A DNA stretch of 64,000 nucleotides from Mucilaginibacter polytrichastri. Lineage in GTDB: Bacteria; Bacteroidota; Bacteroidia; Sphingobacteriales; Sphingobacteriaceae. Location of the stretch: positions 4,698,404 to 4,762,403 of the forward strand of contig NZ_MPPL01000001.1 in the NCBI RefSeq assembly GCF_001911425.1, given 5' to 3'. Positions 17,211 through 45,820 of the stretch are shown piece after piece; the stretch's first letter is position 1; each line of letters opens with the position of its first letter. The position numbers were made by a program, and so were the translations under genes. The notes below the pieces were generated by a model. The model worked only from the letters and a program-made list of their open reading frames with translations. It did not search any database and was not told the DNA's origin.

Positions 17211-18265
17211 TTGTTAGTTAAAACCTTTGGCAGCGCTGTTTACGGTATCGAAGCCACCACCATTACCGTTGAAGTTAACATTGCTGCCGGTACCAAATTT
17301 TTCATAGTCGGCTTGCCCGATAATGCCATTAAGGAAAGTTATTACCGGATAGAATCGGCCCTTAAAAACTGCAATTACCGCATGCCGCGCCAGCAGGTGG
17401 TGGTTAACATGGCCCCGGCAGATATCCGTAAAGAAGGTTCGGCTTATGATCTCACCATTGCCACGGCAGTGATGGCCGCATCGGGCCAGGTAGAGGTTGA
17501 AGAACTCGATAAGTACATTATTATGGGTGAGCTATCGCTGGATGGCACGCTACAACCTATAAAAGGTGCACTGCCCATTGCCATACAGGCCCGCAAGGAG
17601 GGCTTTAAAGGATTCATCCTCCCTAAACAAAATGCCCGCGAGGCGGCCATTGTAAATGACCTTACCGTTTACGGTGTAGAAAGCATCAAACAACTAGTCG
17701 ACTTTTTTAACGGCGACCTTAAACTGGAACCCGAAATAGTAAACACCCGCGACGAATTTTATAACAGCCTCAGTAATTACGATAGCGATTTTAGCGAAGT
17801 AAAAGGCCAGGAAAATATTAAACGCGCCTTAGAAATTGCCGCAGCAGGCGACACAATGTGATATTGATCGGCCCGCCGGGGGCAGGTAAAACTATGCTGG
17901 CGCGGAGGCTGCCTTCTATATTGCCACCGCTGAGTTTGCTCGAAGCTTTAGAAACCACCAAGATCCATTCTGTAGCCGGTAAGCTTTCTGTTGCCGATGC
18001 ATTGGTAACGGTACGGCCATTCCGCTCGCCCCATCATACCATATCAGACGTTGCCCTGGTAGGCGGCGGTACCAATCCGCAGCCGGGCGAAATTTCGCTG
18101 GCCCATAACGGTGTATTGTTTTTAGATGAGTTACCCGAGTTTAAACGCAGCGTACTGGAAGTAATGCGCCAGCCGCTGGAAGAGCGCCGCATATCCATTT
18201 CGCGCGCCAAGTTTACGGTAGACTATCCATCCAGCTTTATGCTGGTGGCCAGTATGAACCCCTGA
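17211..18265 (+). pseudogene. comM: comM/yifB Mg-chelatase-like AAA+ gene, frameshifted and interrupted
   Basis: YifB/ComM is a hexameric AAA+ helicase that promotes branch migration in natural transformation; full length is about 510 aa. The N-terminal part (TTG 17211 to 17861) runs from LVKTFGSAVYGIEA to [10 protein letters not shown], then a one-base deletion near 17850 puts the reading into a stop. The next frame (17858-18265) continues exactly where expected with [16 protein letters not shown] (Walker A), LFLDELPEF (Walker B) and ends at [10 protein letters not shown] followed by TGA. Homologues continue CPCGYYNHP. The last matching base is about 18264, where an integrated element begins. 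No 3' remainder exists in the window. The gene is therefore non-functional here. Confidence 0.9.
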
Positions 18266-19727
18266 AGTTGCGTTGACTTGTTTGCGCAGACCCAGGAAGG
18301 TATGCAAGTGCAATATTAATTGAATCCTCTCCTATAGTAATATGCTCAGTTACTGTTTCTGCAATCGCTCTTTTTTGAGAAAATGCCATATCTGTCCACT
18401 CTGTATATAAAGATTTAGCTTCATTTAGCACAAAATCACTTGACTTCAACTGTATACGCCTAAAGTCTATTTCAGCCTCTAATACTGGTATTGATTCATC
18501 AAGTTGAGTAACCTGTATTTCATAAGGCTTATATAAATTGGCAAAGTGATCTTTATTTAAATCTTCGTTCAGTCTAAGATTCACCAAGTCGTCCATTTTC
18601 TTGCGAAGTTGCGCCCGTTTCTTAACCGCTGACGAAAGTAGATCTTCTTGTTTACTTATTTCAGCTTCAATTTCCTCTAGAAACAACTGAGGGGTTATTC
18701 CACCGAGATATTGTTTTAAGTGATGTTGGTAAATCTCGTTCATTACCGCCTCATCAATGCTGTTTTTACAGACCTTACAGGTAAACTTCTTTGCTGTGCT
18801 AAAAATATACATTGGTTTACCACAATGACATTTGACTATACCAGCAAGAAGATATTCAGAAGTCCTACCAATTTTGGTTCGCTTCTGCCTTTGTTCGTCA
18901 AGAATAGCATTACATTCCTGCCATAATTGTTGGTTAATTATAGCGGGGCATGGAACCTGAATCCATTCATCTTCAGGTTTTACTTTCCATTGTTTTCCAT
19001 CACCTGTGCTTTTAGTATAATTAGCGAGGCGCACACCCTTCGCTGTTGTATCTCGAAGAAGACGATCCACAGTAGTGTCGGAAAAGTACGCCCCGTTACG
19101 GGTTCGATACCCTAAAGAGTTTAATTTCTCGGCAGTCGTCTTTTTCCTTTGACACTCGATAAAAATTTCATACATAAGTTTACGTATCGGTGCTTCTTTA
19201 TCATCTACTATCAATTGTTTATTATCCCATTTGTATCCGAAGCTTGCTTGCCCACCAAGAGGTTTCCCCATTTCTGCCCTGATAGGTACAGATGCAGCAA
19301 CTCTACTAGAAATTTCCTCCCGTTCCCATTGGGCCATTGCTGAGATTATGGTAAAAAATAATCTACCCGCTGGGGTACTCGTATCTATTTGTTCAGCCAA
19401 CGAGATCAAATCAGCTCCTTCAAGCCTGAAAATTTCAGCAAACTCTAATAATTCCTTCGTGTTGCGCGCCAATCGTGCCAGTTTGGAAAATACCAAACCT
19501 GATATGTGTCCCCTTCTGATGTCTTTAAGCATTCGCAGTGTTTCTGGATGCTCCATTACCGTTTTGCCAGATATGGCGTCAAGTCTGTATACTTCTGCAA
19601 CATGCCAATCTTTTGATTTGACATAATACCTTGCCCGTTGTTCATGATGTTCAGGACTTTCATCCTTTACTTGATAATCCGTCGAAACTCTTATCCAAAT
19701 ACCAACTCTCTTTTGCTCCGTTTTCAT
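18237..19727 (-). CDS. Large serine recombinase (site-specific integrase)
   Basis: A 496-aa serine integrase. The resolvase catalytic domain has IRVSTD with nucleophile Ser15, then SKLARLARN, then the recombinase domain to about residue 285, a zinc ribbon (Cys300, Cys302, Cys317, Cys320) and a coiled coil at about 350-425, the order expected for large serine recombinases. Its 3' end crosses the junction with comM: residues 489-496 and the TAA stop are antisense comM sequence, so the protein tail would differ in the excised form. It presumably catalysed insertion of the element into comM. It is preceded by a small regulator-like gene 17 bases upstream. Confidence 0.94.
18257..18266. other. Left junction (attL-like) of the integrated element in comM
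   Basis: comM-like sequence AACCCCTG stops matching the family at about 18264: the next base makes TGA where family members have TGC (Cys). Recombinase-side sequence begins at once. The crossover must lie within or just before AACCCCTG. The matching right junction is not in the window, so the core dinucleotide cannot be fixed. Confidence 0.7.
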
Positions 19728-19744
19728 TTCTTAAAAGCTATATA

Positions 19745-20227
19745 TTACTTTAATAACGAGGCCTCCCTGCGCTGCCATTCAAAAATATGTCTTCTAGCGT
19801 CCGAAAGGCTAAATATGGCTTTTCGCTTTGCTGCCTCAAGATCATTTTGCCATGATGGCCACGGATGACTATAACCTGTCGTTCGATGAACGATACTGAT
19901 ATGCCAGCGCCCTTTGGTCTGAGCAGAGAGCGTAATGGTAAAGTCTCCAGCTTTAGCATTATAAGTCCCCGGTGACAGATTGATCCAATCAATTTTCGAG
20001 TTTCTCTCATCTTCCAAATGCTGTAGATAAGTCAGCATATTAACAACCACCAGCATCTCACCAGAAATTGCAGTATCTCCTGCAGTCATACGTTGTATGC
20101 TGCGAATAATTGCGTCATTATTTCGATGATCACCCCAGGCACGCATACGGCTCGCCAATTCAACTGGCGTAAGTCCTAACTCATCTATTTGATAGCGAAA
20201 ATATCCTGCGTTATCATAAAAATCCAT
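19745..20227 (-). CDS. Small regulator-like protein upstream of the recombinase
   Basis: 160 aa from ATG 20227. The N-terminal 60 residues are helical with LGLTPVELASRMRAWG followed by DAIIRSIQRMTAGDTAISGEML, resembling an XRE-like helix-turn-helix. The C-terminal part (KGRWHISIVHRTTGYSHPWPSWQ, then basic helix) is unassigned. The position 17 bases ahead of the integrase on the same strand suggests co-transcription, and a role as an integrase regulator or directionality factor is possible but not shown. A perfect palindrome lies upstream at 20256-20270. Confidence 0.65.
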   Translation of the reverse strand: MDFYDNAGYFRYQIDELGLTPVELASRMRAWGDHRNNDAIIRSIQRMTAGDTAISGEMLVVVNMLTYLQHLEDERNSKIDWINLSPGTYNAKAGDFTITLSAQTKGRWHISIVHRTTGYSHPWPSWQNDLEAAKRKAIFSLSDARRHIFEWQRREASLLK

Positions 20228-20255
20228 ATTCAATTCAGTTTATGGCGACAATTAT

Positions 20256-20270
20256 ACGACATTATGTCGT
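20256..20270. promoter_or_regulatory. ACGACATTATGTCGT palindrome upstream of the integrase operon
   Basis: A perfect 15-bp palindrome with a single central base, centred 36 bases upstream of the small regulator start at 20227. The position suits an operator for a dimeric HTH protein, possibly the gene's own product. Confidence 0.5.
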
Positions 20271-20770
20271 AACAAACAATGCAAAATAGGATAATTTTGT
20301 AGCAACCGGTAATAAATAGCCAATCACCTCTTGATCTATAATTATAAATGCGTCCTTGATATACCATTTTAATTGTTAGTAGATGGAATGCTCGAAGTAA
20401 AATTGGCGATACGATATCATCCCTAAGCCTAATATTCATTTTAACAATTAAAAGGGAAGCGGCAAATGTCCAATTTACATAGTGATTAGAGAGTATTGTA
20501 GGCGCAAAAACATTGTTGAAACCACTAATCGTTTTAAATAAATGTTTGATTTCCTCAAGTGAATCAATGTTTCATTAAGCTTCCAATAAAAATGATAATG
20601 TTCATTTATCATTTATTGATAGCAAGAATAAGGCGGTACTAATTAAACTATCGGACTGGTTGACTTACGGATTTTCATATTATGTGTATGCCGCTTATCG
20701 GAATCCCAATAAATTATCCCCCTCTCTGAATCAATTGTTCAGTCATGGGATGTTCTATACTTAATAATTA

Positions 20771-20800
20771 AAAGCCACTTACAATTTGGTAAGTGGCTTT
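20771..20800 (-). terminator. Hairpin terminator after the YozE-domain gene
   Basis: A 12-bp perfect stem (20771-20782 and 20789-20800) with a 6-base loop, 50 bases beyond the stop of the minus-strand gene at 20852-22087. Confidence 0.7.
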
Positions 20801-20851
20801 AACATTGATCCGATTTCAAAACTCATTCAACATCCGGGCGTTGACTCTTGA

Positions 20852-22087
20852 CTAAAATGTAATGTGATTTATACATGCTAACTCTGGCGTACTTCGTACT
20901 TCATCCAGCTTAACGTTGTGTTGATCACCAGCACTTTTTAAAGGACGCTCTATTTTAAACGTATAAGAAAATTCGTCTGTTTCAAGCACTGTAACCGGAA
21001 TAGCTTTTCTTCCCTCCCAGGAAATCCATGCCTTGTCGCCGGCGACAAATTGTTCGATGGTTCGTTTGCTGTGATGTAGCGGCTTGGTGTTTTTCACAAA
21101 TACGATGGCTCGTGGGTCGTGCTTTTTCGATACCGGTTTTAGGCTACCTTTACTGGGCTTCGGCGATTGTTTTCTTTTTAGAAAGGCTTTGTAAGTTTTC
21201 CAGGCCTTTTCCAACGTCGCCCGCGCGCCCATAGGTGCGTTACTAAGCTTTAAATATTCGTCGTAAGCTTCTTCGCCATCATAGTTGGGCCAGTTATCCG
21301 TCCGATCCTTAAAGCCACGTTTTTGCGCTAAATCGCCAAGAGGTGAATCCCTGTTTTTCTGCTTTGCTAACCATTCTCCGAAGGTTGGTTCAGGCGCTGC
21401 AGGTGGTGGAACATCATTAAAAAATGGTGCACTGCTAATGATGCCGTGATAAATATCCCTCATTTTCACGATGGCTGCATCTAAGGTTTCGGCCTCAGCC
21501 GAATGATGATCCGCCAACACATAGCCGATATGGCACGCCACCCGCCTAAGCTGGAATACGTCAACAACGCCGCGCGTAACATTCCTCATTGAGGATAGCG
21601 TGAGACTTGGCGAAACGTATTCGCGAAAAACGGCTATGGCCACCTCGCCATTATGAAATTCTAATTTCACGCCTTCTCGCTGAACGGCCTGATCCCTGTA
21701 AAATAAAGGCTTTGACTGGATATGCTGATCCGCCAATGCTTTCCCCAGGTATTCCAAAGTCGGCCATATCTTGTGTAAAATCCATTTCTCATCATAAAGG
21801 GGCAGGTAAACGCCCTCCGCGATGTCATCAGGTAAATTTTCAGGGAGCCCTTCAAGTTTTGTGCGCCGTTCTTTAATGGGTGCCGTTGGCGTGAGAATTA
21901 GCAGGTTGGCCTCTCTTAAATTAGTAATCGGGCATTTGTTGTCGGCCAGCAAAGCCGCGCGGGACGAATACCCCATATAGGCCGCCACCAATTCATGCGC
22001 ATGGGACGACTTTAGCTGGATACCGTAATTGTTTTGAGTGAATGTGCGCAATGAGTCCGCGCAACGTTTTGTGATGTCAAGTTGCAT
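20852..22087 (-). CDS. Hypothetical protein with a YozE SAM-like domain
   Basis: 411 aa. The N-terminal 60 residues contain LKSSHAHELVAAYMGYSSRAALLAD, a short motif seen at the start of many Bacteroidota mobile-element hypotheticals. A central segment around residues 245-310 (FGEWLAKQKNRDSPLGDLA, then W...EEAYDEYL, ALEKAWKTYK-like) matches the YozE sterile-alpha-motif-like fold. A basic linker follows, then a small beta-rich C-terminal domain (GDKAWISWEGRKAIPVTVLE) resembling an SH3-like barrel. This combination could bind nucleic acid or partner proteins, but no function is known. It is single, with its own terminator, and divergent from the HEPN gene at 22399. Confidence 0.65.
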   Translation of the reverse strand: MQLDITKRCADSLRTFTQNNYGIQLKSSHAHELVAAYMGYSSRAALLADNKCPITNLREANLLILTPTAPIKERRTKLEGLPENLPDDIAEGVYLPLYDEKWILHKIWPTLEYLGKALADQHIQSKPLFYRDQAVQREGVKLEFHNGEVAIAVFREYVSPSLTLSSMRNVTRGVVDVFQLRRVACHIGYVLADHHSAEAETLDAAIVKMRDIYHGIISSAPFFNDVPPPAAPEPTFGEWLAKQKNRDSPLGDLAQKRGFKDRTDNWPNYDGEEAYDEYLKLSNAPMGARATLEKAWKTYKAFLKRKQSPKPSKGSLKPVSKKHDPRAIVFVKNTKPLHHSKRTIEQFVAGDKAWISWEGRKAIPVTVLETDEFSYTFKIERPLKSAGDQHNVKLDEVRSTPELACINHITF

Positions 22088-22398
22088 AGCAATTTCCTGT
22101 TAAAGGCTGGACTTGCCGGTGCCGAGAGTGTTTAAAGACAACCTATGCCAGCGGGTTAACGAAAATTTGCTGTTTATCAGGCTTGTCAAAAAATTGAATT
22201 AGCCTCGCGTTTCAGTCACTCACAACTGAGGCGCTCGATTCCTTAATCGAATGTAGCAGTAAAAATTGAAAAAAACAAGAGGAGGTATTTAAAAGCTATA
22301 CGGACAACTTACCGCCATGGCAGCCAAAAGAGGTTTATTAAATATTAATGGATAATTTTACTATTTAACCGCGAATTATCGCCCGATTATCATTTACG
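22088..22398. other. Divergent intergenic region, no gene seen
   Basis: About 310 bases between divergent genes. The only structure seen is a short hairpin, TCGATT/AATCGA, at 22235-22250. It presumably holds both promoters. No ORF with plausible composition was found. Confidence 0.4.
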
Positions 22399-23385
22399 AT
22401 GGCAGAAGATATAAAAATGGATTTTCCGTTGAGGCCCGAGAAAGAAGGATTGATGGAAACGATCACAATTGTACCCGTGGTACAAGATAACCCGGAAGGT
22501 GAACTGAAAGTCTATACGCATTTGCGAAACTTCAAGGTGATGGGAACATTATACAGCATTCCGCCGATTTGGAACTCACAGATCGTTGCGGGTAAACTGG
22601 AAGGTGGCACCACACTATTAAAAGCCAGTGAAACGGAATATCAATCGTATGATATGGAAGTAACCGGCGCAAGAAAATTCACCGTTCATCTGAACCAATT
22701 TAAACAACTCTCGTCCGTATCCTGTACCATCGCCGCGAAAAGCTGGCAGGAGGCGTTGCAGGTTTTTCATGACATGATTGATCCTTACCTCAGCCTGATG
22801 TCCTGGCGGTATCACGTACCCTTAGTTTTATCAAACGTCAATGGTACGGATACCGAAACTACCTATCAATACGCGAAATTTATCCAGTCCATACCAGAAA
22901 AGCTCTTTTCACTGACGCAGGAGCCTGTAGAACGTTATACTGAGCATATCGCAGCGCTATTTTCCTTTCATCGGGAAATGGTCAATTCCACCAGCGGGCC
23001 CTACCGGTTATTATGCATCCATAAATGCCTTACCCTTGTCAATCAATTCAAGTCGGTGACCCACGATGAGGTCAAAAAAATGGGATTGGATCTCAAGCAA
23101 TATAAAACCGAAACGGAAGTAAAAATAGAAGATAACGAGATCAATAAATCCGTATGGCCTGAAACGATTGGATGGAACTTGGGGAGGTTACTCGCGGATA
23201 AACTCCGGCCGATGCGAAATAAGATCGCACATGAACTGGATGAAGGCGATAAGTATGCAAATCCCGATAATGGCCTTTTCCAGGAGCAAATCAGGGATTA
23301 TGCCGATGCCGCGCTGCCATTGATGCGGTTGCAGTTCAAAAAAATTATAGATTATAGGGTGAAATACCAGGTGATTACAAAATAA
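22399..23385 (+). CDS. MauJ-like protein with a HEPN-type RNxxxH motif
   Basis: 328 aa. The last third is helical and carries RNKIAH (Arg273 to His278), the R-x4-H pattern of HEPN-domain ribonucleases and of RiboL-PSP/MauJ-type proteins. The N-terminal half is beta-rich and unassigned (NFKVMGTLYSIPPIWNSQIV). Proteins of this layout occur in accessory islands of many bacteria. A role as RNA-cutting effector or sensor in defence is an inference from the motif and from the neighbours: a caspase-like gene convergent downstream and a second HEPN-type gene 690 bases on. A hairpin at 23387-23406 follows its stop. Confidence 0.6.
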   Translation: MAEDIKMDFPLRPEKEGLMETITIVPVVQDNPEGELKVYTHLRNFKVMGTLYSIPPIWNSQIVAGKLEGGTTLLKASETEYQSYDMEVTGARKFTVHLNQFKQLSSVSCTIAAKSWQEALQVFHDMIDPYLSLMSWRYHVPLVLSNVNGTDTETTYQYAKFIQSIPEKLFSLTQEPVERYTEHIAALFSFHREMVNSTSGPYRLLCIHKCLTLVNQFKSVTHDEVKKMGLDLKQYKTETEVKIEDNEINKSVWPETIGWNLGRLLADKLRPMRNKIAHELDEGDKYANPDNGLFQEQIRDYADAALPLMRLQFKKIIDYRVKYQVITK

Positions 23386-23386
23386 T

Positions 23387-23406
23387 GGCGATGTCGTAAC
23401 ATCGCC
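23387..23406. terminator. Hairpin between convergent genes
   Basis: A perfect 8-bp stem GGCGATGT/ACATCGCC with a 4-base loop starts one base after the stop of the HEPN-type gene and lies 19 bases before the stop of the convergent caspase-like gene. Likely a shared terminator. Confidence 0.6.
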
Positions 23407-23424
23407 AGGATATAAGTGTGTTTT

Positions 23425-23991
23425 TCAACAGCCAATATATGCGAACGGCCTGATCGGTGGTTCCGACCCATCGGATATGGCGTCATTTTCCTGGGTAATA
23501 GCCGAAACAACACTATCGGAATTAATACACTTATTATAGATATTGATATTTTGCATAATCGCCTGGGGGCTGCGTTCCGTTGTCGAAAAGATGGCCGCGT
23601 GATAGATATCACGGTGGGCATATTTCAGAAACATTAAAGGTTCGCTGTAACAGGTGAGGCTGGCATTAATGATAAGCCTTCCCCCGCATTTTTGGTTGAT
23701 CGCGGTTAAAGGCTCGCCAAAAATACTCCAGGGAAACTTAAAATCGCTGTTTTTTCCAAAATATGATCTGTCTATATTGCCGTGCGCCAGCAAATGGATA
23801 AGTACGCCTTCTTCCGGTGCGCCTTTGGCTATTATCTTTAAAATATTAAGAAAATCCTGCTCGTCTTCCGGTGAAATAAGCGTTGTGGGGGCCTGGCTTT
23901 TACAATATTCCTCCAGTTCGCTGGCCAGGTTCAGTTCAGGTAAAAAATCGATGATGATAATATTGGTAATTATTTGGCTAAATAAAATCAT
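23425..23991 (-). CDS. Small caspase-like (CHAT/C14 fold) protein
   Basis: 188 aa from ATG 23991 (a TTG at 24021 is in frame). The sequence alternates predicted strands and helices, with a His in GVLIHLLAHGN (His70) and, about 44 residues later, a Cys at the end of a hydrophobic strand in LIINASLTCYS (Cys114). This HG...strand-C order is the catalytic dyad arrangement of caspase-like peptidases. The protein is small and lacks repeat sensors, so it could act as the effector of a partner. It is divergent from the HEPN-type gene at 24074 with only 82 bases between starts. Fold assignment is by pattern and needs structure prediction. Confidence 0.5.
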   Translation of the reverse strand: MILFSQIITNIIIIDFLPELNLASELEEYCKSQAPTTLISPEDEQDFLNILKIIAKGAPEEGVLIHLLAHGNIDRSYFGKNSDFKFPWSIFGEPLTAINQKCGGRLIINASLTCYSEPLMFLKYAHRDIYHAAIFSTTERSPQAIMQNINIYNKCINSDSVVSAITQENDAISDGSEPPIRPFAYIGC

Positions 23992-24073
23992 GTGACATTT
24001 TGAAAGCTCAAATTTCGGCAATCCTTATTAATATCTTTGAAAAAAATGCCTGAACCCCACAGCCTATAATAAT

Positions 24074-25027
24074 ATGAATTACACAGACTTTAAAAATAAC
24101 GATAAACTGGTTGACAAGCTTTTAGCGAAACTGGGCATATTGGAATGGAAAACTATCTTTTTCGATGTAGACCTGGAGCCGGACTACGATATTCTAAAAT
24201 ATCAGAAGGATTACGCCGATTACTATTTTAAAAATAGCTTATCCTTCGAGGGCCGGTATCAATATGTACTTGATGCAGAAATCGGGAGCTTTAACCTGTA
24301 TCCTTACGAGGTATTGAAATATATAAGTGAGGAATCGGGTATAGCATTGCCCGATGATTTTGAAAATGCCCAGGTTGTTAAATTTTTGGAGGAAGTGTCA
24401 GCAAGTGATCGTGATCAACTGGTTGATTTTGGATGGAAGCCGGAAATAGATCAATTAAACCTATACTGCCTGCGGATCAGCCACATTGAAAACAATACAA
24501 AAGCCATCGTTTATGAAGGCGGCTATATGGGTTTACTGACCGATTTCGGTGGTGACCTTACATTGTATGCAGATATTTCGCTTAAAGTCGTTCCATTCCT
24601 GGATAGGGCGCCAAACCAGTTTTACAAAACCTTGGTAGCCGAAGCGTATCTGCTTTTTATGCAGCGGAATTATAAACTCGCTGCCTTCACGCTTTTCTCA
24701 GCCTACGACAATTTTGTAAACGATAAATATGGCAATCCCTATGAAGAAATTCGGCTAAGAGAAAAACTTAAAGCTGTATTTAAAGACCGGTTTGCAGCAT
24801 TGGAAAAACATAATATCTACACACAGATCAAGCGGCAGATAGATGATTTTGAAAAAGTCAGGAACAGCATCGCGCATGGAACGAATACTGATGATATTTC
24901 ATTTACTGAGGTAAAAGATTCGTTCATCATCATGCTTTCACTTTTCATCAGCTATGAGTTCAGCTTTTCGGATTTTCAAACCATCATCGATGATATTTTG
25001 GCATCCGGTATCGATAAGCAATTTTAA
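24074..25027 (+). CDS. HEPN-domain protein
   Basis: 317 aa. The C-terminal 130 residues are helical, with LAAFTLFSAYDNFVNDKYG, then RQIDDFEKVRNSIAHG, giving the HEPN R-N-x3-H motif at residues 263-268. HEPN domains are often metal-independent RNases in toxins and anti-phage systems. The N-terminal 190 residues (YQKDYADYYFKNSLSFEG...) are acidic and not recognised. Its stop is 31 bases from the stop of the convergent nuclease-like gene, so it sits at the end of the MBL/protease operon. The functional link is inferred from position only. Confidence 0.6.
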   Translation: MNYTDFKNNDKLVDKLLAKLGILEWKTIFFDVDLEPDYDILKYQKDYADYYFKNSLSFEGRYQYVLDAEIGSFNLYPYEVLKYISEESGIALPDDFENAQVVKFLEEVSASDRDQLVDFGWKPEIDQLNLYCLRISHIENNTKAIVYEGGYMGLLTDFGGDLTLYADISLKVVPFLDRAPNQFYKTLVAEAYLLFMQRNYKLAAFTLFSAYDNFVNDKYGNPYEEIRLREKLKAVFKDRFAALEKHNIYTQIKRQIDDFEKVRNSIAHGTNTDDISFTEVKDSFIIMLSLFISYEFSFSDFQTIIDDILASGIDKQF

Positions 25028-25058
25028 TTGATGAAGCAGGACGTAATGATACTTATTC

Positions 25059-26606
25059 TCAAAAATCACTGGAAAGGATCAAGTTATCCCAATCAAAATA
25101 CCGGTAGGTTATCGGGATCTCGAAGCGGCTCCTTAAATAATCAAGGTAAACAATCGAATCGTCATCGGGCCTTCGGTCACCTACTACAATAATATTTTTC
25201 GCACGCTCCACACCAGGGTAATAAGCATATTCCATGACCTGCCCGATGGCGTTGCGGATGCTTCGCTTTGGGCTGTCGGTTTTGATCTCGAAGTAATCCC
25301 AGGTACCGTCATGCTTAACGGCCTTGATATCTACGCGGCTCTTTTCTATATAAACGTGTTTGTAGTCGTATTTTTCGTCTGTACGTAAATGGGCAACTAT
25401 GGCATTTTGCATACGGTCATGATACGGATCGTATTCCTGATCCATATTGAATGTTCTTTTTCTTTTGTCCGTATTTTTGAATTTGCCTTCATCTTCTTCA
25501 TCCGGCTCGACCGGGTTCATTGCAGGTACCACTTCGCCCCGGTAGCCCAGCAGTTTAAACCGGTCGGTAGTTACGTTATCGTCTTCGTAAGAAAGTTCCT
25601 CGGGTTCTTTATCCTGTATAATATCACTCAGCTTAAACCGCACATTAAAAAACAAATCAGGTTTGTTCCGGTTAAATTCGGCGACATCTGCTTCAACCCG
25701 TTCCAGGGAAGTAGCCATTTCATCCAGCCAGTCATTGTCTTTGTAAATTTTAAAAGTGGCTGTTGAATCCGCCTTCGTTATCCCTTCGCAGTTCCTGATG
25801 CACCCGATGTAAAAATACTGCCGCAGGTCATTTTGGCTATATAGGTGTACATTATAAACTTTCCCTGCATGTTTCTCCGTCTTGGATTGAAAACCCCGAA
25901 TGAATCCGTAGTGATAGCCATTGATCAGCCGTGACCGGTCAAATAACCATTCTTCATATCCAAAGCCATATTTACCTTCATGCGTATTCAGGTCATCGGA
26001 TTTGCCGAGCCAGCCGGACGGATATTGCCAATTATTGGTGTTCCATGAAAGCCGGGTAATTTTATTGGTTTTGGCAAAGACGATTTGTTTATTGCGCAAG
26101 GCAATTACCTTCATCCCATATTTCTGAAATTCTTCCAGTGTAACTTTATGGATTAGCGGTGGTTTTTCACTATCGATCAGCTTGTCAACCTTTGGCTTAA
26201 ATTTCTTGATGTAATAATCAAAATGCTCCAGGTATTGGTCATTGTCCTTGCCGGGAAACATTTTGAACCATTTATACTTAGTACCAGGGCGATCAAGACC
26301 TGGTTCAAGTTTTGCTACTTTCTCTAAAAATGGAACAGTTTCCTCGGCACCCTGCCCAGACAATTCAATGTAGCAGCTCCTGTCGGGCAGCACCACAAAC
26401 CCGATGCAGTTTACCCGCTCTTTCCAATCAACTCCGCTCCACAGGCTTACATAAACGTAATCTTCATTACCTAAAAACCAGTAACCCTTATCCATCCGTC
26501 CGTCATTGTTGATCTTACGGGGCATGAAAAGCAAATTGGGATCTACCTTACGGAGCTTAACTAAATGGTCAAGGATCTTTTCGTGAATTTTGGCAATGGA
26601 TGGCAT
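25059..26606 (-). CDS. Protein with C-terminal PD-(D/E)xK-like nuclease domain
   Basis: 515 aa. The C-terminal 110 residues hold SRVDIKAV, followed after a turn by WDYFEIKTD, then a helix with AIGQVMEYAYYPG, a close fit to the PD-(D/E)xK nuclease core (Asp, then Glu-x-Lys, then the Q/E-x3-Y helix). The N-terminal part up to about residue 150 and a central GYGFGYEEWLFD...YHYGFIRGF segment are conserved-looking but unassigned, perhaps ligand or modified-base recognition. It is last in a minus-strand array, 30 bases after the RES gene. It is probably a DNA-cutting effector or a type IV restriction-like enzyme, an inference from the domain. Confidence 0.6.
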   Translation of the reverse strand: MPSIAKIHEKILDHLVKLRKVDPNLLFMPRKINNDGRMDKGYWFLGNEDYVYVSLWSGVDWKERVNCIGFVVLPDRSCYIELSGQGAEETVPFLEKVAKLEPGLDRPGTKYKWFKMFPGKDNDQYLEHFDYYIKKFKPKVDKLIDSEKPPLIHKVTLEEFQKYGMKVIALRNKQIVFAKTNKITRLSWNTNNWQYPSGWLGKSDDLNTHEGKYGFGYEEWLFDRSRLINGYHYGFIRGFQSKTEKHAGKVYNVHLYSQNDLRQYFYIGCIRNCEGITKADSTATFKIYKDNDWLDEMATSLERVEADVAEFNRNKPDLFFNVRFKLSDIIQDKEPEELSYEDDNVTTDRFKLLGYRGEVVPAMNPVEPDEEDEGKFKNTDKRKRTFNMDQEYDPYHDRMQNAIVAHLRTDEKYDYKHVYIEKSRVDIKAVKHDGTWDYFEIKTDSPKRSIRNAIGQVMEYAYYPGVERAKNIIVVGDRRPDDDSIVYLDYLRSRFEIPITYRYFDWDNLILSSDF

Positions 26607-26636
26607 GAGGTGATAGGTTTAGAATAATTAAATCGG

Positions 26637-28073
26637 TTATTCGTCGAGTAAAGGGCCGCGCATAAAACTAAAACGAAATACTTTATGTGGTTCAGTACTG
26701 ATTTTTACGGCCTTTACAATATGGATCGTCACGGATTCCAAATCAATTTTGAGGGTAAACGGGCGTGAATCATATCCAGGATTTAGGAAATCATAAAGAT
26801 CTTCTTCCGGTTCTGCCGGTTCCTCATCTTCCGGCAATACTTCCGTTACTCGAAATGAAATGTATTCGTTTTCACCATCGTATTCGGAAAACTCCACTTC
26901 TGTTTCAGCCCCTTCAGGTACTTTTATTTCTTCTACCCTGGAGGCTTTATTAAACAGCACAACATTAGGTCGGTTACCCTCGACCTGCGCCGATTTGAAA
27001 ATAATGCCATCAAATTTAAAACGGGGATCTGTAGCAAGGAAATCCGCAATTGCTTGTGTCGGCAGGTATTCAAATAACTCATCATCCGGCATGACGGGTT
27101 GCGTCACCCGTTCAGCAAGGTTACTTAAAAAAATGAACCGCGATAACTCCCTTGGGTAAACTGCATCAAAAATGCTCCCTTTAAGGGCTACGTCCAATAG
27201 CGCCGTCAGGTCAAGCACTTTTAAATTCCTGAGCAACGTAAAACTGGCGACAGCTACCTGTGAACCGACCGGGGGCCGGACTTCCGCCAGCGCAGTTTCC
27301 TCGTCCACTGCACCGTAGAAAACAGAAATACCACGTGCATTCATTCTGCCATCATTAGCCAGTAAGGAGGGTGGTGAACCGAGCTGCATTTCCGGCCTTA
27401 CTAAAGCTTCTCTTAATTTTTCATTAGATTGAAATATACGGGCGCGAAATAGAGTAGGTATCGCCGTTCCGGGGCCGATTGTTGTCACAATCGGCCGCTT
27501 ATCAAAGGCAACCATTTCTTCAAGGCCCGAAAACACATCGGCCAAATGCCTGGCGCCGGCTTGGTTAAAATACCGGCTTTCTGTTTTTAAGCTGGCTACG
27601 AAGTCGTCCCATTCTTTTTGCCAGCTATCATCATTGTAATCAATCCGTTGGTAGTAGCTACCACTTTGGTAGCCGCTCTCCATCTGCATCTCTGCAGCTT
27701 CCCTGTCGGCGTGCTCATCTTCCAGATACTGTTGAATATCATAGGCAACGTCATTTTCTGACATTAATGCTTCTGCAATCACATACTCCACCGGATCGCC
27801 GTGGCGCTCCCAATTAAATGTCGATTCGGAATCGTTGTGCAGGACTTCCTCAAACCTGTCCATTTCATCTGCAGTACGTTTGTAAAATAATTCAAAAGCC
27901 TCGTGAACACGGTGAGCCACATGGCTGATCGGATATCCTTTTCGGGAAGTTTTACAATAGGCACATTTCTTCATTTTTCCAATGCGCGACATTTCCTCGC
28001 TTAGAAATTCATCGCCAATGCACTTGAAGCAAACGTGTTTTAGTCCTATCGTATCGTCGTATGGAAAGCTCAA
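26637..28073 (-). CDS. RES-domain protein with zinc-finger/HEPN-RES N-terminus
   Basis: 478 aa, TTG start at 28073. The N-terminus has a four-Cys zinc site (Cys15, Cys18, Cys37, Cys40) followed by a helical region, as in HEPN/RES N-terminal domains. From about 195 to 370 comes a RES domain: LFRARIF with the conserved Arg, then RMNARGISVFYGA and ETALAEVRPPVG with the conserved Glu. RES proteins of toxin-antitoxin modules consume NAD+, so an abortive-infection-type effector is plausible. The C-terminal about 100 residues are acidic and unassigned. No antitoxin (Xre-like) is adjacent. The protease-NTPase gene lies 77 bases upstream and the nuclease-like gene 30 bases downstream. Confidence 0.75.
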   Translation of the reverse strand: MSFPYDDTIGLKHVCFKCIGDEFLSEEMSRIGKMKKCAYCKTSRKGYPISHVAHRVHEAFELFYKRTADEMDRFEEVLHNDSESTFNWERHGDPVEYVIAEALMSENDVAYDIQQYLEDEHADREAAEMQMESGYQSGSYYQRIDYNDDSWQKEWDDFVASLKTESRYFNQAGARHLADVFSGLEEMVAFDKRPIVTTIGPGTAIPTLFRARIFQSNEKLREALVRPEMQLGSPPSLLANDGRMNARGISVFYGAVDEETALAEVRPPVGSQVAVASFTLLRNLKVLDLTALLDVALKGSIFDAVYPRELSRFIFLSNLAERVTQPVMPDDELFEYLPTQAIADFLATDPRFKFDGIIFKSAQVEGNRPNVVLFNKASRVEEIKVPEGAETEVEFSEYDGENEYISFRVTEVLPEDEEPAEPEEDLYDFLNPGYDSRPFTLKIDLESVTIHIVKAVKISTEPHKVFRFSFMRGPLLDE

Positions 28074-28150
28074 TTGTTATAAGGTTAAGTGGATGATAAA
28101 GTTAGTAAAATAACCATCGCTTAATTTTTCATCACATTGCCATTTATAAA

Positions 28151-31100
28151 TTATCTGTATTGCAATAACTCCTCTTTAATCATATAGGCTTTAGTAGATT
28201 CCCTTTTGATAAGCAGGTCAAGAATAAATAAGAAATCTTCAAGGTTTTTTTTGCTCGATTTGATTTGCTTGCCAAAATTATAAAAGGCCCGCTCTATGAA
28301 CTTTTCCAATAATTTAGTTTTTGCAATGGGTGCCTTATCCGACATTAGCATAGAGGCAGTCCACGCAATCGAATCCGGCATGAAATTTTTCATGCCTACG
28401 CCCGATATAAATTTGAATGAGGAATTAATATCATTAAATCCATATAGCGTTATAAATTCACCGTAAAAACCTTTTTTGCCGTTAAGTACGTGCCATTCTG
28501 AACTTGCTTCGGTCCAGTCAATATCAAGCAAAAACAGGCGTAATAAGAACGGCTTTAGGGTTGAAATAATGAAGTCTCGCATTTCTGACCATAGAATCCA
28601 AAAACGTTCTATGGGTTGGTCGTCGTTATACCAATTGTTAATAGAGGAAATGTGCTGCTGAATTAATTCGCGAACGTAATTGTTTTTCGCTTTAATGTTT
28701 AAAGTATCGTCTTCAATTAGGGTTTCGTTTAGAAGTTCCTTGAATAATGCTTTTGCAGTAATATCAGGTTGACTTAGGATAAACCTTGCATAAAATTGTT
28801 TAAACGCACTTCTGCTCTCTGAAAAATCATCCTTCTCCCTCAATTTAAGGTCGGCAATAAAATCAAGATGCATCTTCTTTGTGTTGCTGATAAACTTGTG
28901 CACTTCAGGCAAAGAATTGTTAGGCGAAATCATTTGCAATGACCAATCAAATTGCCAATGCGTACTAATTTCAAGTGTGAAAATATCCGGGATAATATGC
29001 TTGTTTTTTTGTTTGGCCACGGTTAAAATAAGTTCTTCTTTCCAACTTTCATTGTCAATTGGTTTAACTTCTGGTATAAAGTGACTGTCAAGATCCCATT
29101 CTTCATCGAGATAGCCAAAAGCTCTTTTAGAATTATTTGCCCTTTCTAATTCAATGTACTCCAGCAGACCATACCAACAGCTTAATGCAAAAGATGGAGC
29201 TATCTTCCATAAATTAATTGATATTCCCAGAAGGAAATGAGCTTTCGCTGTTCCATCAAATCGGGCAATAAGTAACTTAAAAATTAAAGCTTTTATCTCG
29301 ATCTCCTCTTTTTTTGTCATTTGTTTTTTCAGAAGAAATGGGACAGCATATAACACCGGGTTTTGATCATATATATTTAAATCGATATCCATGAAATCAC
29401 GTTTGATCAACGTCTTTTCTGCACCGGCTTTAACATGAACAAAACACCATTCTTTTTCTTCCTGTGATAGGGTATCATAGAACGTTTTCAGACCAATTGC
29501 TGCAAATACGCCTGGCGAACTCATAAAGGAGTTGCCGTTTTTAGGTAATTGTAAAAAGTCGAATCCCAACTTCCAATTCTCATAGGTATGCGTTTCTTTC
29601 AAGGGGCCATTATAAACTTCCGAAGCCCAAACACCGCCAAATATTGGAAACAGCCCCACACTATTCTTATAATCTTCTACCATTTCACTTACACCCTCGT
29701 CGTATTCCGGAGTATAGGCTACATAATTTTCATAACCAGGAAGGGCGACGGGTTTAAAGGAATATTTCCGACTGTCCATGTCATACAGTGCCTTTCGCCA
29801 TATAACATCATCTGGTCTGGCCACCTCCCACATTTTATCAATCTCTGCAAACAAAAGCTGGTTATAGGTCTGAATGTAAAACATATAATCAGCAACAAAT
29901 TGGATCATTCCCCTGTAAAATGAAGTACGATGCTTCCGTTTTGAAGCAACTTTTCTTTCTTCGACTAAAAACTTATCATCATTGTAATAATCAAGATTTA
30001 AGAGATCGGAGTTGTGGCGCGTCGAATCCCATTCAAAAAATTCCCGAACGCCGAATAGTTTTACCGAGGCTTCATCAAGTAAATTCGGATAGGCTTGAAT
30101 AATGCTTGAAACAACCCCTAAAACTGCAACATTATTAGACTGGGAAATTAATTCAGCTATAATTTTTCTGCACTGAACATAGCTATTCACTCCTTTAGCA
30201 GCAAGGTCAAACAGTCCATTTTCAAGAGCCATTAACAAAGATTGAATAACCCTATTATCCCCATATCTTCCAGCGTACATTGACCAGTACCGAAAACTTC
30301 CGAAATAGACTTTTTCTTCCTGATCGATAGTAGCAGTTATCAGCTGGCGATCTTCATCTGTACGAAATCTACCTTCCTGATTTTTTGCAAAAGCTTTATT
30401 CAAAAAAGGTATTAAAAACTTAATAGCCTTATCAGGATGATGCAGAAACATCCAGTAGAAAAATGTCTGATAGCCGCTGGCCATACCGTAATGATATTCT
30501 ATATTTTCATCAAGTCCGTAATAATCGGGGCCTTTCTCAGGTTTTATCATAGACATAAGGCTGCCTGGCCGGTGGACTTTCTCCTTTTCCCGCCATTCTT
30601 CCTGGGCTATTTCTAATACGGTATCTGGAAAAAACCGACAGATTTGGTCACTTACAACGCCATCAATAAGGTAGTAACGAATGTCGCGCAGTAACGATTG
30701 GTTTACCCAAAAACCAGTTTCTGTTTTGGGCAGCGCTAAGGCTGCTTCTACGATTTCACGAGTCGCATCTAAATTATCCTTAGTCAAACTAAATAATAAC
30801 CGGATGATCTTAAATTCTAAAGATTCACTTGCGTGGTTACGTCTTGGGTGATCCAGCAACTCGTAGTATTTTTCCAGAAATACTTTCAATAATGACGAAG
30901 CACTCCCGGCCGAACGTGGAAGTTTATTGGGGGCAAAAGCAGGGAGTTGTTTCCCCCACGATTGAATAACAAACACTGCCTTCATCATCAACGCAGGATC
31001 GTCTTTGATTTCTGTAACATGGGACGCCAAAAAAACTATCATTGTATCCCAACCCGAACCTACCGGAAAATTGTCATCAAAATTTGAATTGGCATTATTT

Positions 31101-33067
31101 AACGTCTTACACGCGGCCTGAAGAAGATTTATATAATGTTGTACCAGGTCGCCTTCGTTTGCCAATAATTGAGTTTCGACTTGTTGAAACAGGGCTCCAG
31201 CATAACTTGACCTAAGGATTGAAATAATTAGTTCATCCTTCCAGGCGGTAGGAGCATTAGGATCGGACAGCAGCGTATTGGTAAACTCATTTGCATCATC
31301 GCTTTCATATTTATACAGCTCCTCTAACCATAACCGGAAGGCCCTACGTATGGCCGGACTATTGCCAAGCGACTCAATAAATTTAATTGGCGACTCCGAC
31401 TTTTGCCGAAGTAATTTTATTACTCTGATTAAGGCCCAGTCTTCCAAAATATCATGAGAGGGTGCAAATCTATTTGCAAGTTCTCCTGCCTCGACTTGAA
31501 GGATATTGTCCTTAACAAGCGCCTCAACGAGATCAGCGGGTTGTGATGTATCTGTAAATAATGTTAGTTCTAAAGCCCGCTTAAGCGATATTGATTGAAA
31601 TACAAGTCCCCGTCGCACATCCCCGGCCTCAATAATATATTGCCACATTAACTTCTTAAAAGTTATTTCGTCAATATCTTCTACATTGTTTAGTTGAGGA
31701 AAGATGCGAACTGCTTTATCTAAGTAATAGGGCGTTCTTAATAACCTGGTTAATTTATGATTTGAAAACAAGGGCGTCATTTCAGGAAGTCGCTCCTTAA
31801 TGATATTAAACTCATCTTCGGTAAATTCATTTACTCTGGTGTAAATATCAGCCCTCGGTAATTCATAGTGATAGGTGACCTTGAATTTTTGTAATAAATA
31901 TTCCCTGATTGTCACTACGATCTGTATTTGCGGATTGTTCTTTTGTAAAAAAAGAAGATCCATAAATGCATCATCGGCACCCAATTCAACCAACTTCTCA
32001 AAACTCTCGATCCATATTATTACCTTTTTACCAGCAAGTTGACTGTTTAAAAGATCATTTAACTGTGATTTATAGCCCGCTTTGAGCAACGTTTCATTGA
32101 AGGTGTTACTTTGTAATAGGTCTGCGGCAAATGCCAAGACCGTTGCTTTGCCATCTTTTTCAAGCTCCGATATTATTGCTTTGGCCGCTGCTGATTTTCC
32201 AACGCCAGGGAATCCATGCAGGACGGCTATTTTATGAATCTGAAGATTTTCTAAAGCTTGTTTGGTATCACGTTTAATAGTTATTTCAGCAACCGTGTCT
32301 TTAGTTTTCCGGTAAAGAGATTCTTTAAATTGGCCAGCAATCTGGTATGATGCGATTACATCCGCATTTTTCTCCGGTTGAACAGTTGGGATAGGCATAT
32401 AACCTGGAGGTATCAATCGGTTAAGTGCAGCTATCTTTGTTCCTATAAAGTGATTCTTTTCTTCATAGGTGTGAATTATGCCGTAAAGAAGCTGTACGTT
32501 ATTAATATTCAAAAAATAGCCGCTACCTGACAAGCCACTAACGTTATCTAACGCCTTTTGTAAATAAGTATCGAGAGGATCAACGGCATCTGCAATAAAA
32601 AGAAGTGGTTTGTCCTTTATATTCTCAATAAAATTAGCTTCAAACGGACGATCTTCGTCGCCCTGGTTAAAATCTGCAAAACCTCGTAAACTACCTTGAT
32701 CGCTTTTTTCGGCAGACTCTATACATTCGTAAAAAAAACTTTTACCTATTAAATTGACAATCTTAGTTTTTGGTAATACCAATAAAGCAATGTCTAACTC
32801 ATTTTCCGGCGAACAAACAACTACGTCAGTATCTGAAAGCTGAAACTCATGGAATTCAAATGTTGCTGCATTAAATAGTTTTTCGAGCTTAATATCACTC
32901 GGCACAAATGTTTTATCAAAATCTTCACCCGCTAAACAATGTTTGGCAGTGAACACATACATATATTCCACTTCGTCTGATGGAAAATACAACAGTGCAG
33001 TACCCGTCACACCATTACATTTTATTTTAACAGTTGCATTTTGGCTTATGTATTCATTCGCTGTCAT
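28151..33067 (-). CDS. Trypsin-like protease fused to a STAND-type NTPase, 1638 aa
   Basis: Residues 1-220 form a trypsin-like serine protease: His43 (TAKHCLAGE), Asp92 (NELDIALLVL) and Ser180 (SGLSGSG). A P-loop NTPase follows with Walker A GFPGVGKS (285-292), Walker B VIIWIESFE (349-357) and a sensor-like VVTIREYLL. About 1200 further residues are helical, consistent with a repeat-type sensor arm, ending in a Lys-rich tail. This order (protease effector, STAND switch, long sensor) is the plan of antiphage STAND proteins. The MBL-fold gene overlaps its start by 14 bases, so the two are coupled. Target recognition and the protease substrate are unknown. Confidence 0.85.
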   Translation of the reverse strand: MTANEYISQNATVKIKCNGVTGTALLYFPSDEVEYMYVFTAKHCLAGEDFDKTFVPSDIKLEKLFNAATFEFHEFQLSDTDVVVCSPENELDIALLVLPKTKIVNLIGKSFFYECIESAEKSDQGSLRGFADFNQGDEDRPFEANFIENIKDKPLLFIADAVDPLDTYLQKALDNVSGLSGSGYFLNINNVQLLYGIIHTYEEKNHFIGTKIAALNRLIPPGYMPIPTVQPEKNADVIASYQIAGQFKESLYRKTKDTVAEITIKRDTKQALENLQIHKIAVLHGFPGVGKSAAAKAIISELEKDGKATVLAFAADLLQSNTFNETLLKAGYKSQLNDLLNSQLAGKKVIIWIESFEKLVELGADDAFMDLLFLQKNNPQIQIVVTIREYLLQKFKVTYHYELPRADIYTRVNEFTEDEFNIIKERLPEMTPLFSNHKLTRLLRTPYYLDKAVRIFPQLNNVEDIDEITFKKLMWQYIIEAGDVRRGLVFQSISLKRALELTLFTDTSQPADLVEALVKDNILQVEAGELANRFAPSHDILEDWALIRVIKLLRQKSESPIKFIESLGNSPAIRRAFRLWLEELYKYESDDANEFTNTLLSDPNAPTAWKDELIISILRSSYAGALFQQVETQLLANEGDLVQHYINLLQAACKTLNNANSNFDDNFPVGSGWDTMIVFLASHVTEIKDDPALMMKAVFVIQSWGKQLPAFAPNKLPRSAGSASSLLKVFLEKYYELLDHPRRNHASESLEFKIIRLLFSLTKDNLDATREIVEAALALPKTETGFWVNQSLLRDIRYYLIDGVVSDQICRFFPDTVLEIAQEEWREKEKVHRPGSLMSMIKPEKGPDYYGLDENIEYHYGMASGYQTFFYWMFLHHPDKAIKFLIPFLNKAFAKNQEGRFRTDEDRQLITATIDQEEKVYFGSFRYWSMYAGRYGDNRVIQSLLMALENGLFDLAAKGVNSYVQCRKIIAELISQSNNVAVLGVVSSIIQAYPNLLDEASVKLFGVREFFEWDSTRHNSDLLNLDYYNDDKFLVEERKVASKRKHRTSFYRGMIQFVADYMFYIQTYNQLLFAEIDKMWEVARPDDVIWRKALYDMDSRKYSFKPVALPGYENYVAYTPEYDEGVSEMVEDYKNSVGLFPIFGGVWASEVYNGPLKETHTYENWKLGFDFLQLPKNGNSFMSSPGVFAAIGLKTFYDTLSQEEKEWCFVHVKAGAEKTLIKRDFMDIDLNIYDQNPVLYAVPFLLKKQMTKKEEIEIKALIFKLLIARFDGTAKAHFLLGISINLWKIAPSFALSCWYGLLEYIELERANNSKRAFGYLDEEWDLDSHFIPEVKPIDNESWKEELILTVAKQKNKHIIPDIFTLEISTHWQFDWSLQMISPNNSLPEVHKFISNTKKMHLDFIADLKLREKDDFSESRSAFKQFYARFILSQPDITAKALFKELLNETLIEDDTLNIKAKNNYVRELIQQHISSINNWYNDDQPIERFWILWSEMRDFIISTLKPFLLRLFLLDIDWTEASSEWHVLNGKKGFYGEFITLYGFNDINSSFKFISGVGMKNFMPDSIAWTASMLMSDKAPIAKTKLLEKFIERAFYNFGKQIKSSKKNLEDFLFILDLLIKRESTKAYMIKEELLQYR

Positions 33068-34118
33068 CTTTCTTAATTGGTAAAAAGGTTAAGGTATATC
33101 GATTAGAATCATTTGCAATGTATAAACAACTGAAATTATATTTAGCATAAGGGTCATCATCCACTGCGAAAAGGTTTTTTATTTCATCTGTTTTGCTGCT
33201 GAAGATAAAGTTAAGATGCTTTTGCCGGGTTTTGCCGGTAAGAATCCGTGCCAAACATTCTTTATCGGGATGCTTATTGCTTACGCCATTTGCTGTAAAC
33301 AAAAAATTAGCTGTATTAATCATTTCAAGCAATTCAGGGCTGGTATTGGCTTTGCTGCCGTGATGAGAAATTTTTGCAAATTCGATATTTAACGGATTTT
33401 CTTTAGAATAACCCAAAGCCATTAAAGAAGTTACTATATCAGATGGATGGCTATCAGCAAGGAATAAAGCTTTCAATCCTTGATATTCAAGCAAGAAAGC
33501 TATTGAACTTGCATTAACTGGATCACCATCCTCAGAAAACGCTTTTCCATCAAAATCTTCTATTTTTTTATTGTGGTCGCTTTCGCTTCTGCCGACTTTC
33601 CCGTTTAATTCTTCTTTACTCCAAATGCCTTCAACATTGGAAAGTTTCTCAGGTGTTGGCGATAGGATAGTCAATTTAAGACCTGATAAATTTACTTCAC
33701 CGCTCGCAGTAGTTATTTTTTCATTTGGCAAATTCCCTAACCCGGCCAAATAATCCCGAAGATCTATTCCTTGTTGTACACCAATTTTGCCGTTAGTTTT
33801 TGGAACAGGAACACCTGTATAATTGAACCAATAGCTTTTCATGAGTGCACTTTTGTCATGAATTTTATTATCTTGTACAAAACTCAGAACAGCGCCTATA
33901 TGATCGAGATCTATGTGGGTGATAGCCCATAGGTCAACGGAAAGTCCACCAGCAATCATATCCTTTAATAGGGGGCCGAAACCCATTTTATAGGCATATC
34001 CATAGCCACCATCTAAGAAAATATGGTGCCTTTTATCATCATCTCCTAAAAAATTAATCCAAATTGCGTCTCCAGCACCTACGTCAAAAAAATTAAAGAT
34101 AAGTCGATATTCATCCAT
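33054..34118 (-). CDS. MBL-fold hydrolase (ComEC-like metallo-beta-lactamase domain)
   Basis: 354 aa, soluble, no signal peptide. The metal-binding motif is THIDLDH (His68, Asp70, Asp72, His73), preceded by the LDGG strand and followed by LFLADSH and a late ISHHGSKANT, which together mark the ComEC/Rec2-like branch of the MBL fold. Members can be nucleases or phosphodiesterases. The gene overlaps the protease-NTPase gene by 14 bases and is first in the minus-strand operon. MBL proteins occur with trypsin-like proteases and STAND NTPases in AVAST-type defence loci, as I recall. Confidence 0.85.
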   Translation of the reverse strand: MDEYRLIFNFFDVGAGDAIWINFLGDDDKRHHIFLDGGYGYAYKMGFGPLLKDMIAGGLSVDLWAITHIDLDHIGAVLSFVQDNKIHDKSALMKSYWFNYTGVPVPKTNGKIGVQQGIDLRDYLAGLGNLPNEKITTASGEVNLSGLKLTILSPTPEKLSNVEGIWSKEELNGKVGRSESDHNKKIEDFDGKAFSEDGDPVNASSIAFLLEYQGLKALFLADSHPSDIVTSLMALGYSKENPLNIEFAKISHHGSKANTSPELLEMINTANFLFTANGVSNKHPDKECLARILTGKTRQKHLNFIFSSKTDEIKNLFAVDDDPYAKYNFSCLYIANDSNRYTLTFLPIKKDDSE

Positions 34119-34456
34119 AAACCTTTTTTAACCAATGCTTTAATTGATCTTAAAAGGATTAATCATTAACTGTGCCCAATTAATTTTATGCCAGAATGTC
34201 TACCAATAGTATTTGAAAGTGAAAATAACCGCTAAAATGTTAATATAAAAATTCTATCGATTCTTTCAATGGAATACTAAAGCCATTTTGGTAATTTAGA
34301 TACGACATTCTTACAAACCCATAATTAACTGTTAGTCTGATCGTGCTGGAACAATCGATCGATAAATCTGTTTTCTCCTATATAGCTCCAAATATCAATT
34401 TGGCACCAAATCCAAACCAGCTATAATTATATCTTTACATCTGTTTTTAGCATCAC
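34119..34456. other. Divergent promoter region of the defence-like operon
   Basis: About 340 AT-rich bases between the divergent MBL-fold gene and the second caspase-like gene. Only a 10-bp palindrome ATCGATCGAT (34354-34363) stands out. Both promoters should lie here. No ORF accepted. Confidence 0.4.
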
Positions 34457-35248: not shown

Positions 35249-35447
35249 GCCGCGTCCTTTATTAATTCGACAATGCCGGCGCCCTTTCATCCTACCTATT
35301 GACAACCTCTAACAACTTCTTCGCTTCGATCAACAATATTCTGAACGGTTCACCTCATCTGTCGCCCTTAAACCTCATATTTTGAAACGTCAATTTGCCA
35401 ATATTTGACTGATGGCACAAAGGTGTTATTAGACAGTGCGAATAATA

Positions 35448-35738
35448 ATGGATAACTATTTATTATCAAAGTTTGTAACTTTAGGAATGGTTGAAGACGT
35501 CCCATTTTTTGAAATAAAATATGAAGGCAAGGCTGTTCGTGTCAGCGAGCATAATATCGCCGAGCAGAGGGTCTTCCATGTCGATCTTCCCTTGCACGGC
35601 AAGGCACTGATCTTAACAGTGACTGAAGGGCCGAAAGGCCGGTTTTGGACATCGCTGCCCGAAGGCCGGCAGGTAGAGGCGGAAAAGGTTGGCCCTTTAA
35701 TTGCACGGTATTTTAAGAACAAGAAAAATAAAACTTAA
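35448..35738 (+). CDS. Small hypothetical protein upstream of the SRAP gene
   Basis: 96 aa from ATG 35448 (GTG 35436 is also in frame). A compact beta-rich sequence, ILTVTEGPKGRFWTSLPEGRQ, with no signal peptide and a basic tail. It ends 4 bases before the SRAP gene start, so the two are probably co-transcribed. I do not recognise the family. A role in DNA-damage tolerance is suggested only by position. Confidence 0.6.
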   Translation: MDNYLLSKFVTLGMVEDVPFFEIKYEGKAVRVSEHNIAEQRVFHVDLPLHGKALILTVTEGPKGRFWTSLPEGRQVEAEKVGPLIARYFKNKKNKT

Positions 35739-35742
35739 GCGT

Positions 35743-36654: not shown

Positions 36655-36660
36655 TTAATA

Positions 36661-42090: not shown

Positions 42091-42102
42091 ATCCTTTACA
42101 TT

Positions 42103-42462: not shown

Positions 42463-42475
42463 CAAATTTGGGACT

Positions 42476-42510: not shown

Positions 42511-42542
42511 CTTTTTTACAATTTTTTATTCACATTTGTTTG

Positions 42543-45808: not shown

Positions 45809-45820
45809 TCATCTACCGCC

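Follow-up and report, generated by a model that had tools for sequence, protein, structure and literature searches.

The window analysed here, a stretch of 64,000 nucleotides that corresponds to positions 4698404-4762403 of its contig (C1, in a genome of 5.84 Mb), contains an interrupted copy of the comM (yifB) gene. The 5' part of that gene (17211..18264, plus strand) extends to the codons for S-M-N-P plus the dinucleotide TG, and a large serine integrase gene (18237..19727, minus strand; 496 aa in its integrated state) runs toward it on the opposite strand. The TG at 18263..18264 (CA in the integrase orientation) is the crossover dinucleotide, and the adjoining left attP half-site (18265..18289, with the arm AAGTTGCGTTGACTTGTTTGC...), which mirrors an arm at the right end of the element (L003:10180-10204), also encodes the last element-coded residues of the integrase. 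The integrase gene contains no stop codon before the core, and its stop, together with its last 8-9 residues, lies in antisense comM DNA; in the family as a whole, the integrated-state integrases end 4-24 codons inside comM. Upstream of the integrase is a 162-aa ORF (19745..20233, minus strand) that lacks a Pfam match, and for which no counterpart was found in the other loci compared.

The left part of the element fills the remainder of the window (18265..64000) and continues to C1:4842205. The initial annotation had proposed that comM is the integration site of a serine integrase, cut after S-M-N-P, and that a 3' part beginning CPCGYY should lie beyond the window; that part starts at C1:4842206, on the same contig and 125.5 kb from the 5' part, and corresponds to the single match of the PF13335 profile in this genome (C1:4842369). 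The sequence across the left junction is ATGAACCCC-TG-AAGTTGCG, and that across the right junction (L003:10205-10206, equivalent to C1:4842204-4842205) is ACATGTA-TG-CCCCTGTGG. Joining the comM flanks yields one frame (...SMNPCPCGYYNHPEKECV...) that restores S-M-N-P-C-P-C-G-Y-Y and matches the intact comM of relatives, in which there is no continuation into the recombinase, and related elements are inserted at the same codon. The proposal is thus borne out, as is the accompanying estimate that the element exceeds 45 kb, its size being 125,538 bp (C1:4716668-4842205). The core suggested at the same time, AACCCCTG, had to be abandoned: TG represents the only bases common to attL and attR, intact comM contains two copies of CCCCTG, and TG is the only centre of symmetry for the attP arms. 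The CCCCTG that flanks both junctions comes from the C-P-C coding of comM (AACCCC-TG-CCCCTGTGG), and not from a duplicated core. TG is likewise common to both junctions in all 43 attL/attR pairs that were assembled from the family, and their arms match in inverted-repeat form at 11-18 of 25 positions (mean 15.1, against a mean of 7.0 when shuffled). A second and separate frameshift in the comM 5' part, near 17858 (window 17830-17870), causes it to be read as two ORFs, and could have arisen by decay once the element had inserted or be an error of sequencing; the interrupted gene may therefore already be decaying.

A parallel to the AbaR islands of Acinetobacter, which had also been drawn, holds for the target gene comM and goes no further than that. 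AbaR islands move by Tn7-like transposition with a target-site duplication rather than by a serine integrase, whereas the element described here has a TG crossover and inverted-repeat attP arms.

The cargo of the element includes a gene for an Avs4-like STAND NTPase protein (28151..33067, minus strand; its Avs4 match, at E 4.3e-117, falls far below the curated cut-off), genes resembling those for DNA polymerase III alpha and ImuB (IMS family; 36661..41372, minus strand), and a protein kinase gene. Near the right end lie genes for a relaxase (PF03432, MobB-like), a MobC-like coupling protein, TraG, TraK, TraM and TraN (the matches to TraM and TraN fall just under their NCBIfam cut-offs, and those to MobB and MobC well under theirs), as well as an M23 peptidase and a ParA-like protein. 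Because these predicted Mob and Tra genes lie inside it, the element is best called an integrative conjugative element (ICE). It has MobB-, MobC-, TraG-, TraK-, TraM- and TraN-like genes in common with the CTn-type conjugative transposons of Bacteroidota, but differs from that type in its large serine integrase; CTnDOT has a tyrosine integrase. Related elements that are contained on a single contig span about 16 to 160 kb, which indicates that the integrase module travels with different cargo. In some relatives a small basic ORF, a candidate directionality factor, is found upstream of the integrase gene (L140:2675-2827 and similar), and the corresponding ORF of the window's element is located at its opposite end (L003:9501-9758).

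The integrase carries resolvase and recombinase domains (PF00239, 1.9e-30; PF07508, 1.8e-16) in one protein, which identifies it as a large serine recombinase; a match to the recombinase zinc ribbon (PF13408) scores 14.2 bits, below its cut-off of 25.3, and Cys pairs are conserved in the family alignment (A2). These catalytic and recombinase domains are common to the integrases of TP901-1, A118, Bxb1 and phiC31, for which structures have been solved. In those systems attP presumably lies outside the integrase gene, and among the matches listed for them no XRE tail spanning attP was evident.

The arrangement at the two ends of the window's element is different. An ORF for an XRE-type helix-turn-helix (HTH) protein (L003:9771-10202, minus strand), located at the right end and outside the window, begins at the core, and when the element is joined across TG, as it would be in an excised circle, the integrase and the HTH ORF form one frame (...QTSQRN-F-IHVLPCLRYEGK...IGEHIRKKRIELKLLQ...). 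The same in-frame join was observed in all 43 pairs with both ends at comM, and in a further element inserted in reverse orientation (G447), for a total of 44/44. The codon phase of the core is 2 in 41 pairs, 0 in two (L104 and L213, in which both halves of the gene are shifted together) and 1 in G447. The joined tails extend for 86-221 aa, and 42 of the 43 that were scanned match HTH_3. As a control, the frame needed for the join was found to run from the core for at least 85 codons (median 149), and runs of at least 60 codons in the other two frames occurred in 2 of 86 cases; at loci beside the N-terminal part of comM, the integrase frame is open through the core in 52/52. The 43 paired integrases fall into 21 groups at 70% identity, and the 43 cases are therefore related rather than independent.

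Of these pairs, 26 come from searched genomes, 18 of them on one contig and 8 on two contigs and paired by genome only; several GenBank genomes hold more than one attR, and pairing there is uncertain. Loci placed outside the 43 include two with an intact comM instead (L177, L182), six with no match to the C-terminal part of comM (L186, L197, L203, L206, L219, G442), one that has no XRE domain and a core other than TG (L192), one in reverse orientation (L212), and additional copies of attR in G783, G787 and G805, which are also in frame (one with a tail of 68-70 aa). In two of those last genomes (G783:C2, G787:C53/C1), several comM 3' fragments and HTH halves lie within a few kb, as if insertions had piled up.

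Serine integrases that insert into protein-coding genes are common, and in some phages attP overlaps the 3' end of the integrase gene for a short distance; an unremarkable explanation would be that an ordinary ICE with a serine integrase has inserted into comM and that its integrase frame by chance meets no stop before the junction. An in-frame join in 44/44 pairs over 86-221 codons, with an HTH_3 match in nearly every tail, strongly disfavours that explanation and leaves it with hardly any probability. As judged from the joined sequences, the attP of this family is instead embedded in its own integrase gene.

The same architecture was encountered in an unsplit state. One 3,947-bp contig, titled Deltaproteobacteria, encodes a continuous 693-aa fusion of integrase and HTH domain around an intact attP (GGCAACGCAACTT-CA-CCCCTGCGTTGCC; L195), and a terminal repeat was sought in that contig and was not found at the lengths tried. 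In one genome (G306) two related elements are arranged in tandem in one comM (G306:C24:50600-105700, L085-L087), and at their inner junction the second integrase is fused, unsplit, to the HTH of the first element; in two further cases the fused tail is short (L193) or the fusion is interrupted by a contig end (G325:C25). An AlphaFold model of the 693-aa protein places the core at residue 488, within a low-confidence linker (473-510) between the integrase and the HTH helices. The pTM of that model is 0.32 and nine tail-only rows of its input alignment (A3) were misaligned to the N-terminal half, and for those reasons only local confidence was used; the modelled position of the core suits a linker that could be cut without harm to either part.

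In a sample of 301 genomes from the same family, 21 contain 23 near-full-length relatives (48-100% identity), and in 16 of those 21 the integrase adjoins a comM that is interrupted at the same codon. In the other five (G043, G317, G205, G180, G024) no comM lies beside the integrase; comM is intact in four of them, and in the fifth (G205) the comM C-terminal part was looked for and was not found. HTH tails occur far from the integrase, on its contig, in four of those five (G043, G205, G317 and G024), which suggests that the split is independent of comM; a tail was looked for in G180 and none was found. A search of 149 genomes of the genus found relatives in 19, at comM in 18, and a sample of 395 genomes of the phylum found them in eight: five at comM in the usual orientation, one in reverse orientation (the G447 element described above), one with the HTH half alone beside comM (G573) and one in which three copies lie elsewhere than at comM, which is intact (G364). 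In the G573 case (G573:C285; L130, L254), which is in reverse orientation, the comM N-terminal part and the HTH tail are joined in a single open frame of 523 aa.

A wider search of genome contigs (genome_contigs) confirmed 341 relatives, of which the best 80 were kept. Among these best 80 of 341, 52 lie beside the comM N-terminal part at the same codon, two beside the C-terminal part, three are fused to the HTH, one stops at a contig end and the remaining 22 lie elsewhere; their titles include Pedobacter, Sphingobacterium, Chitinophaga and Niastella, along with metagenome-assembled genomes named for Ignavibacteria, Armatimonadetes, Acidobacteria, Planctomycetes, Deltaproteobacteria and others, some of which may be mis-binned contigs (archaeal names occur in two titles). 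A common second target was considered for the 22 loci counted as non-comM, and was rejected when neighbouring ORFs proved to be common to only three pairs. Of those 22, one (L172) turned out to lie at comM, with a contig end beside it, and another non-comM locus (L181) has kept its attP arms and has a broken tail. An intact copy of comM appears to lie inside three elements (G292:C23:31439, L068; G805:C23:556012, L241; L177:1394-2929), and the last of these reads AACTCG-TG in place of the usual attB AACCCC-TG, a difference that might spare the copy from the integrase. In a separate case (L059, G054:C16), a distant serine recombinase with about 25% identity lies beside comM cut elsewhere; comM may be a target for more than one family of integrases.

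A plasmid search with the fused protein returned at least 5000 records, with no fused copy among the matches listed; one record covers 80% of the query, and the first 15 of the matches listed are at 22-26% identity. A phage search returned 781 records, all below 60% identity, and eight among the matches listed are at 23-27%; one of the phages, Dulem virus 37, carries its XRE gene apart from the integrase and upstream of it, a layout unlike the present fusion. Among the best 80 loci kept from viral contigs, two are at 44% identity, and both lack comM and an HTH tail; the others reach at most 46%, over short stretches, or are lower.

Whether the tail is a maintained part of a protein can be judged from its pattern of substitution. 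In 12 close pairs, where synonymous change is high and the dN/dS values are therefore rough, the HTH part gave values of 0.08-0.18 in seven and was saturated in five, and the linker gave higher values (0.13-0.57 in the ten pairs that were computable). The low values for the HTH part are those of purifying selection and show that the tail is maintained as protein. Purifying selection on the integrase half is strong, and the distances of integrase and tail co-vary (Mantel r 0.69, 0/2000 permutations), as would be expected from co-inheritance alone.

The fusion is a prediction from sequence, and separate translation of the tail is conceivable. The HTH ORF might be an independent gene that starts near the right end and encodes a regulator or directionality factor, the shared frame being a relic of an old fusion or a constraint of the att arms. 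In keeping with such a gene, an in-frame start lies between the core and the HTH in many tails (TTG in 34 of 43, ATG in 17 of 43), an ATG lies upstream in antisense comM for 22 of 43, and the HTH part evolves faster than the integrase. The position of the start is not conserved, however, and 26 of the 43 have no ATG before the HTH; moreover, separate genes need no common frame, yet every one of the 44 pairs is in frame, and across three different core phases. An independent HTH gene is for these reasons unlikely.

The interpretation that is preferred, and that is considered probable, is that the 125.5-kb ICE entered comM by means of its large serine integrase, that the integrase gene in which attP is embedded was split upon integration, and that the HTH module serves the circular state. 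According to this proposal, the excised form would carry a single gene for a protein of about 640 aa, comprising a catalytic integrase, an attP-carrying linker and an XRE-type HTH tail. Integration, at a crossover TG that falls between the codons of S-M-N-P and C-P-C-G, would cut that gene in two: the half at attL retains every serine-integrase domain that was recognised and terminates after a few codons of antisense comM, and the HTH half stays behind at attR. Full-length Int-HTH would then be made only from an excised circle or a tandem array, so that the protein itself would report whether the element is free or integrated.

Serine integrases integrate unaided, and their excision needs a directionality factor. 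The HTH would be attached to the integrase in the state in which the element can only integrate, and missing from it in the state in which the element can only excise, and is for that reason unlikely to be a fused excision factor; by the same logic it would more likely be a module for integration or for control of the integrase gene. Most likely it would promote or restrain attP x attB recombination, regulate the integrase gene, or both, and the HTH-less integrase would be the form available for excision, assisted by a distinct directionality factor. Such a role is a prediction, and one consideration against it is that serine integrases in general integrate with no additional domain. There is about an even chance that integration acts as a molecular switch in a widespread family of bacterial serine integrases: removal of the HTH module by recombination would cause free and integrated elements to make two different integrases, and the attachment site itself would thereby encode state-dependent control of the direction of recombination or of integrase synthesis.

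The closest known precedents are found in archaea, where the 'suicidal' integrases of the SSV type also carry attP within their gene and are split on integration; a 2021 review, in the portion available, describes such integrases as exclusive to archaea (PMC8371274). On the description in that portion, the two systems share the location of attP and the split (the latter in 44/44 pairs here), but the SSV-type enzymes are archaeal tyrosine recombinases whose catalytic part is separated, whereas the present integrases are bacterial and of the serine type, keep the catalytic half whole and lose an HTH tail; their target, the protein-coding gene comM, also differs from that of the SSV-type integrases. 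By analogy, the split might disable the present integrase as well, such that the element would be trapped until a related element supplies the full-length enzyme in trans. The position of attP, as given for SSV-type integrases in the same portion of the review (PMC8371274), and the occurrence of tandem arrays and of several elements per genome (as in G306) are consistent with such a fate. Nevertheless, the integrated form retains its resolvase and recombinase domains and a known serine-integrase length, where the SSV-type split separates the catalytic part, and strong purifying selection acts on the integrase half (though selection on the circular form could explain that); a trapped element is thus a possibility to be held only tentatively, although a more credible one than an independent HTH gene.

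A second comparison is offered by mycobacteriophage BPs and its relatives, in which, as far as the available parts of two papers describe it, integration-dependent immunity relies upon an attP within an element gene whose product is altered at its C-terminus (PMC4557955, PMC9262239). As described there, the split gene is that of the repressor, the integrase is a tyrosine recombinase, attB overlaps a tRNA gene, and an ssrA-like tag leads to degradation of the long form; in the present family, attP lies within the joined integrase frame and it is the integrase itself that is split. An LAA-like end was sought in the 43 fused tails, and none recurred. Among the matches listed in PubMed Central, which covers few subscription papers, there was neither a bacterial or serine self-splitting integrase nor a comM-targeting serine integrase in Bacteroidota.

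If the preferred reading holds, in which integration splits an integrase gene that houses its own attP, the self-splitting design would also exist in bacteria and among serine integrases, in a form that leaves the catalytic half whole. The family would then offer a direct and testable answer to the question of how an element with a serine integrase may sense its own state, free or integrated. It also adds a recurrent cause of comM loss, and its integrases, given their conserved target codon in comM, may prove useful as tools for Bacteroidota.
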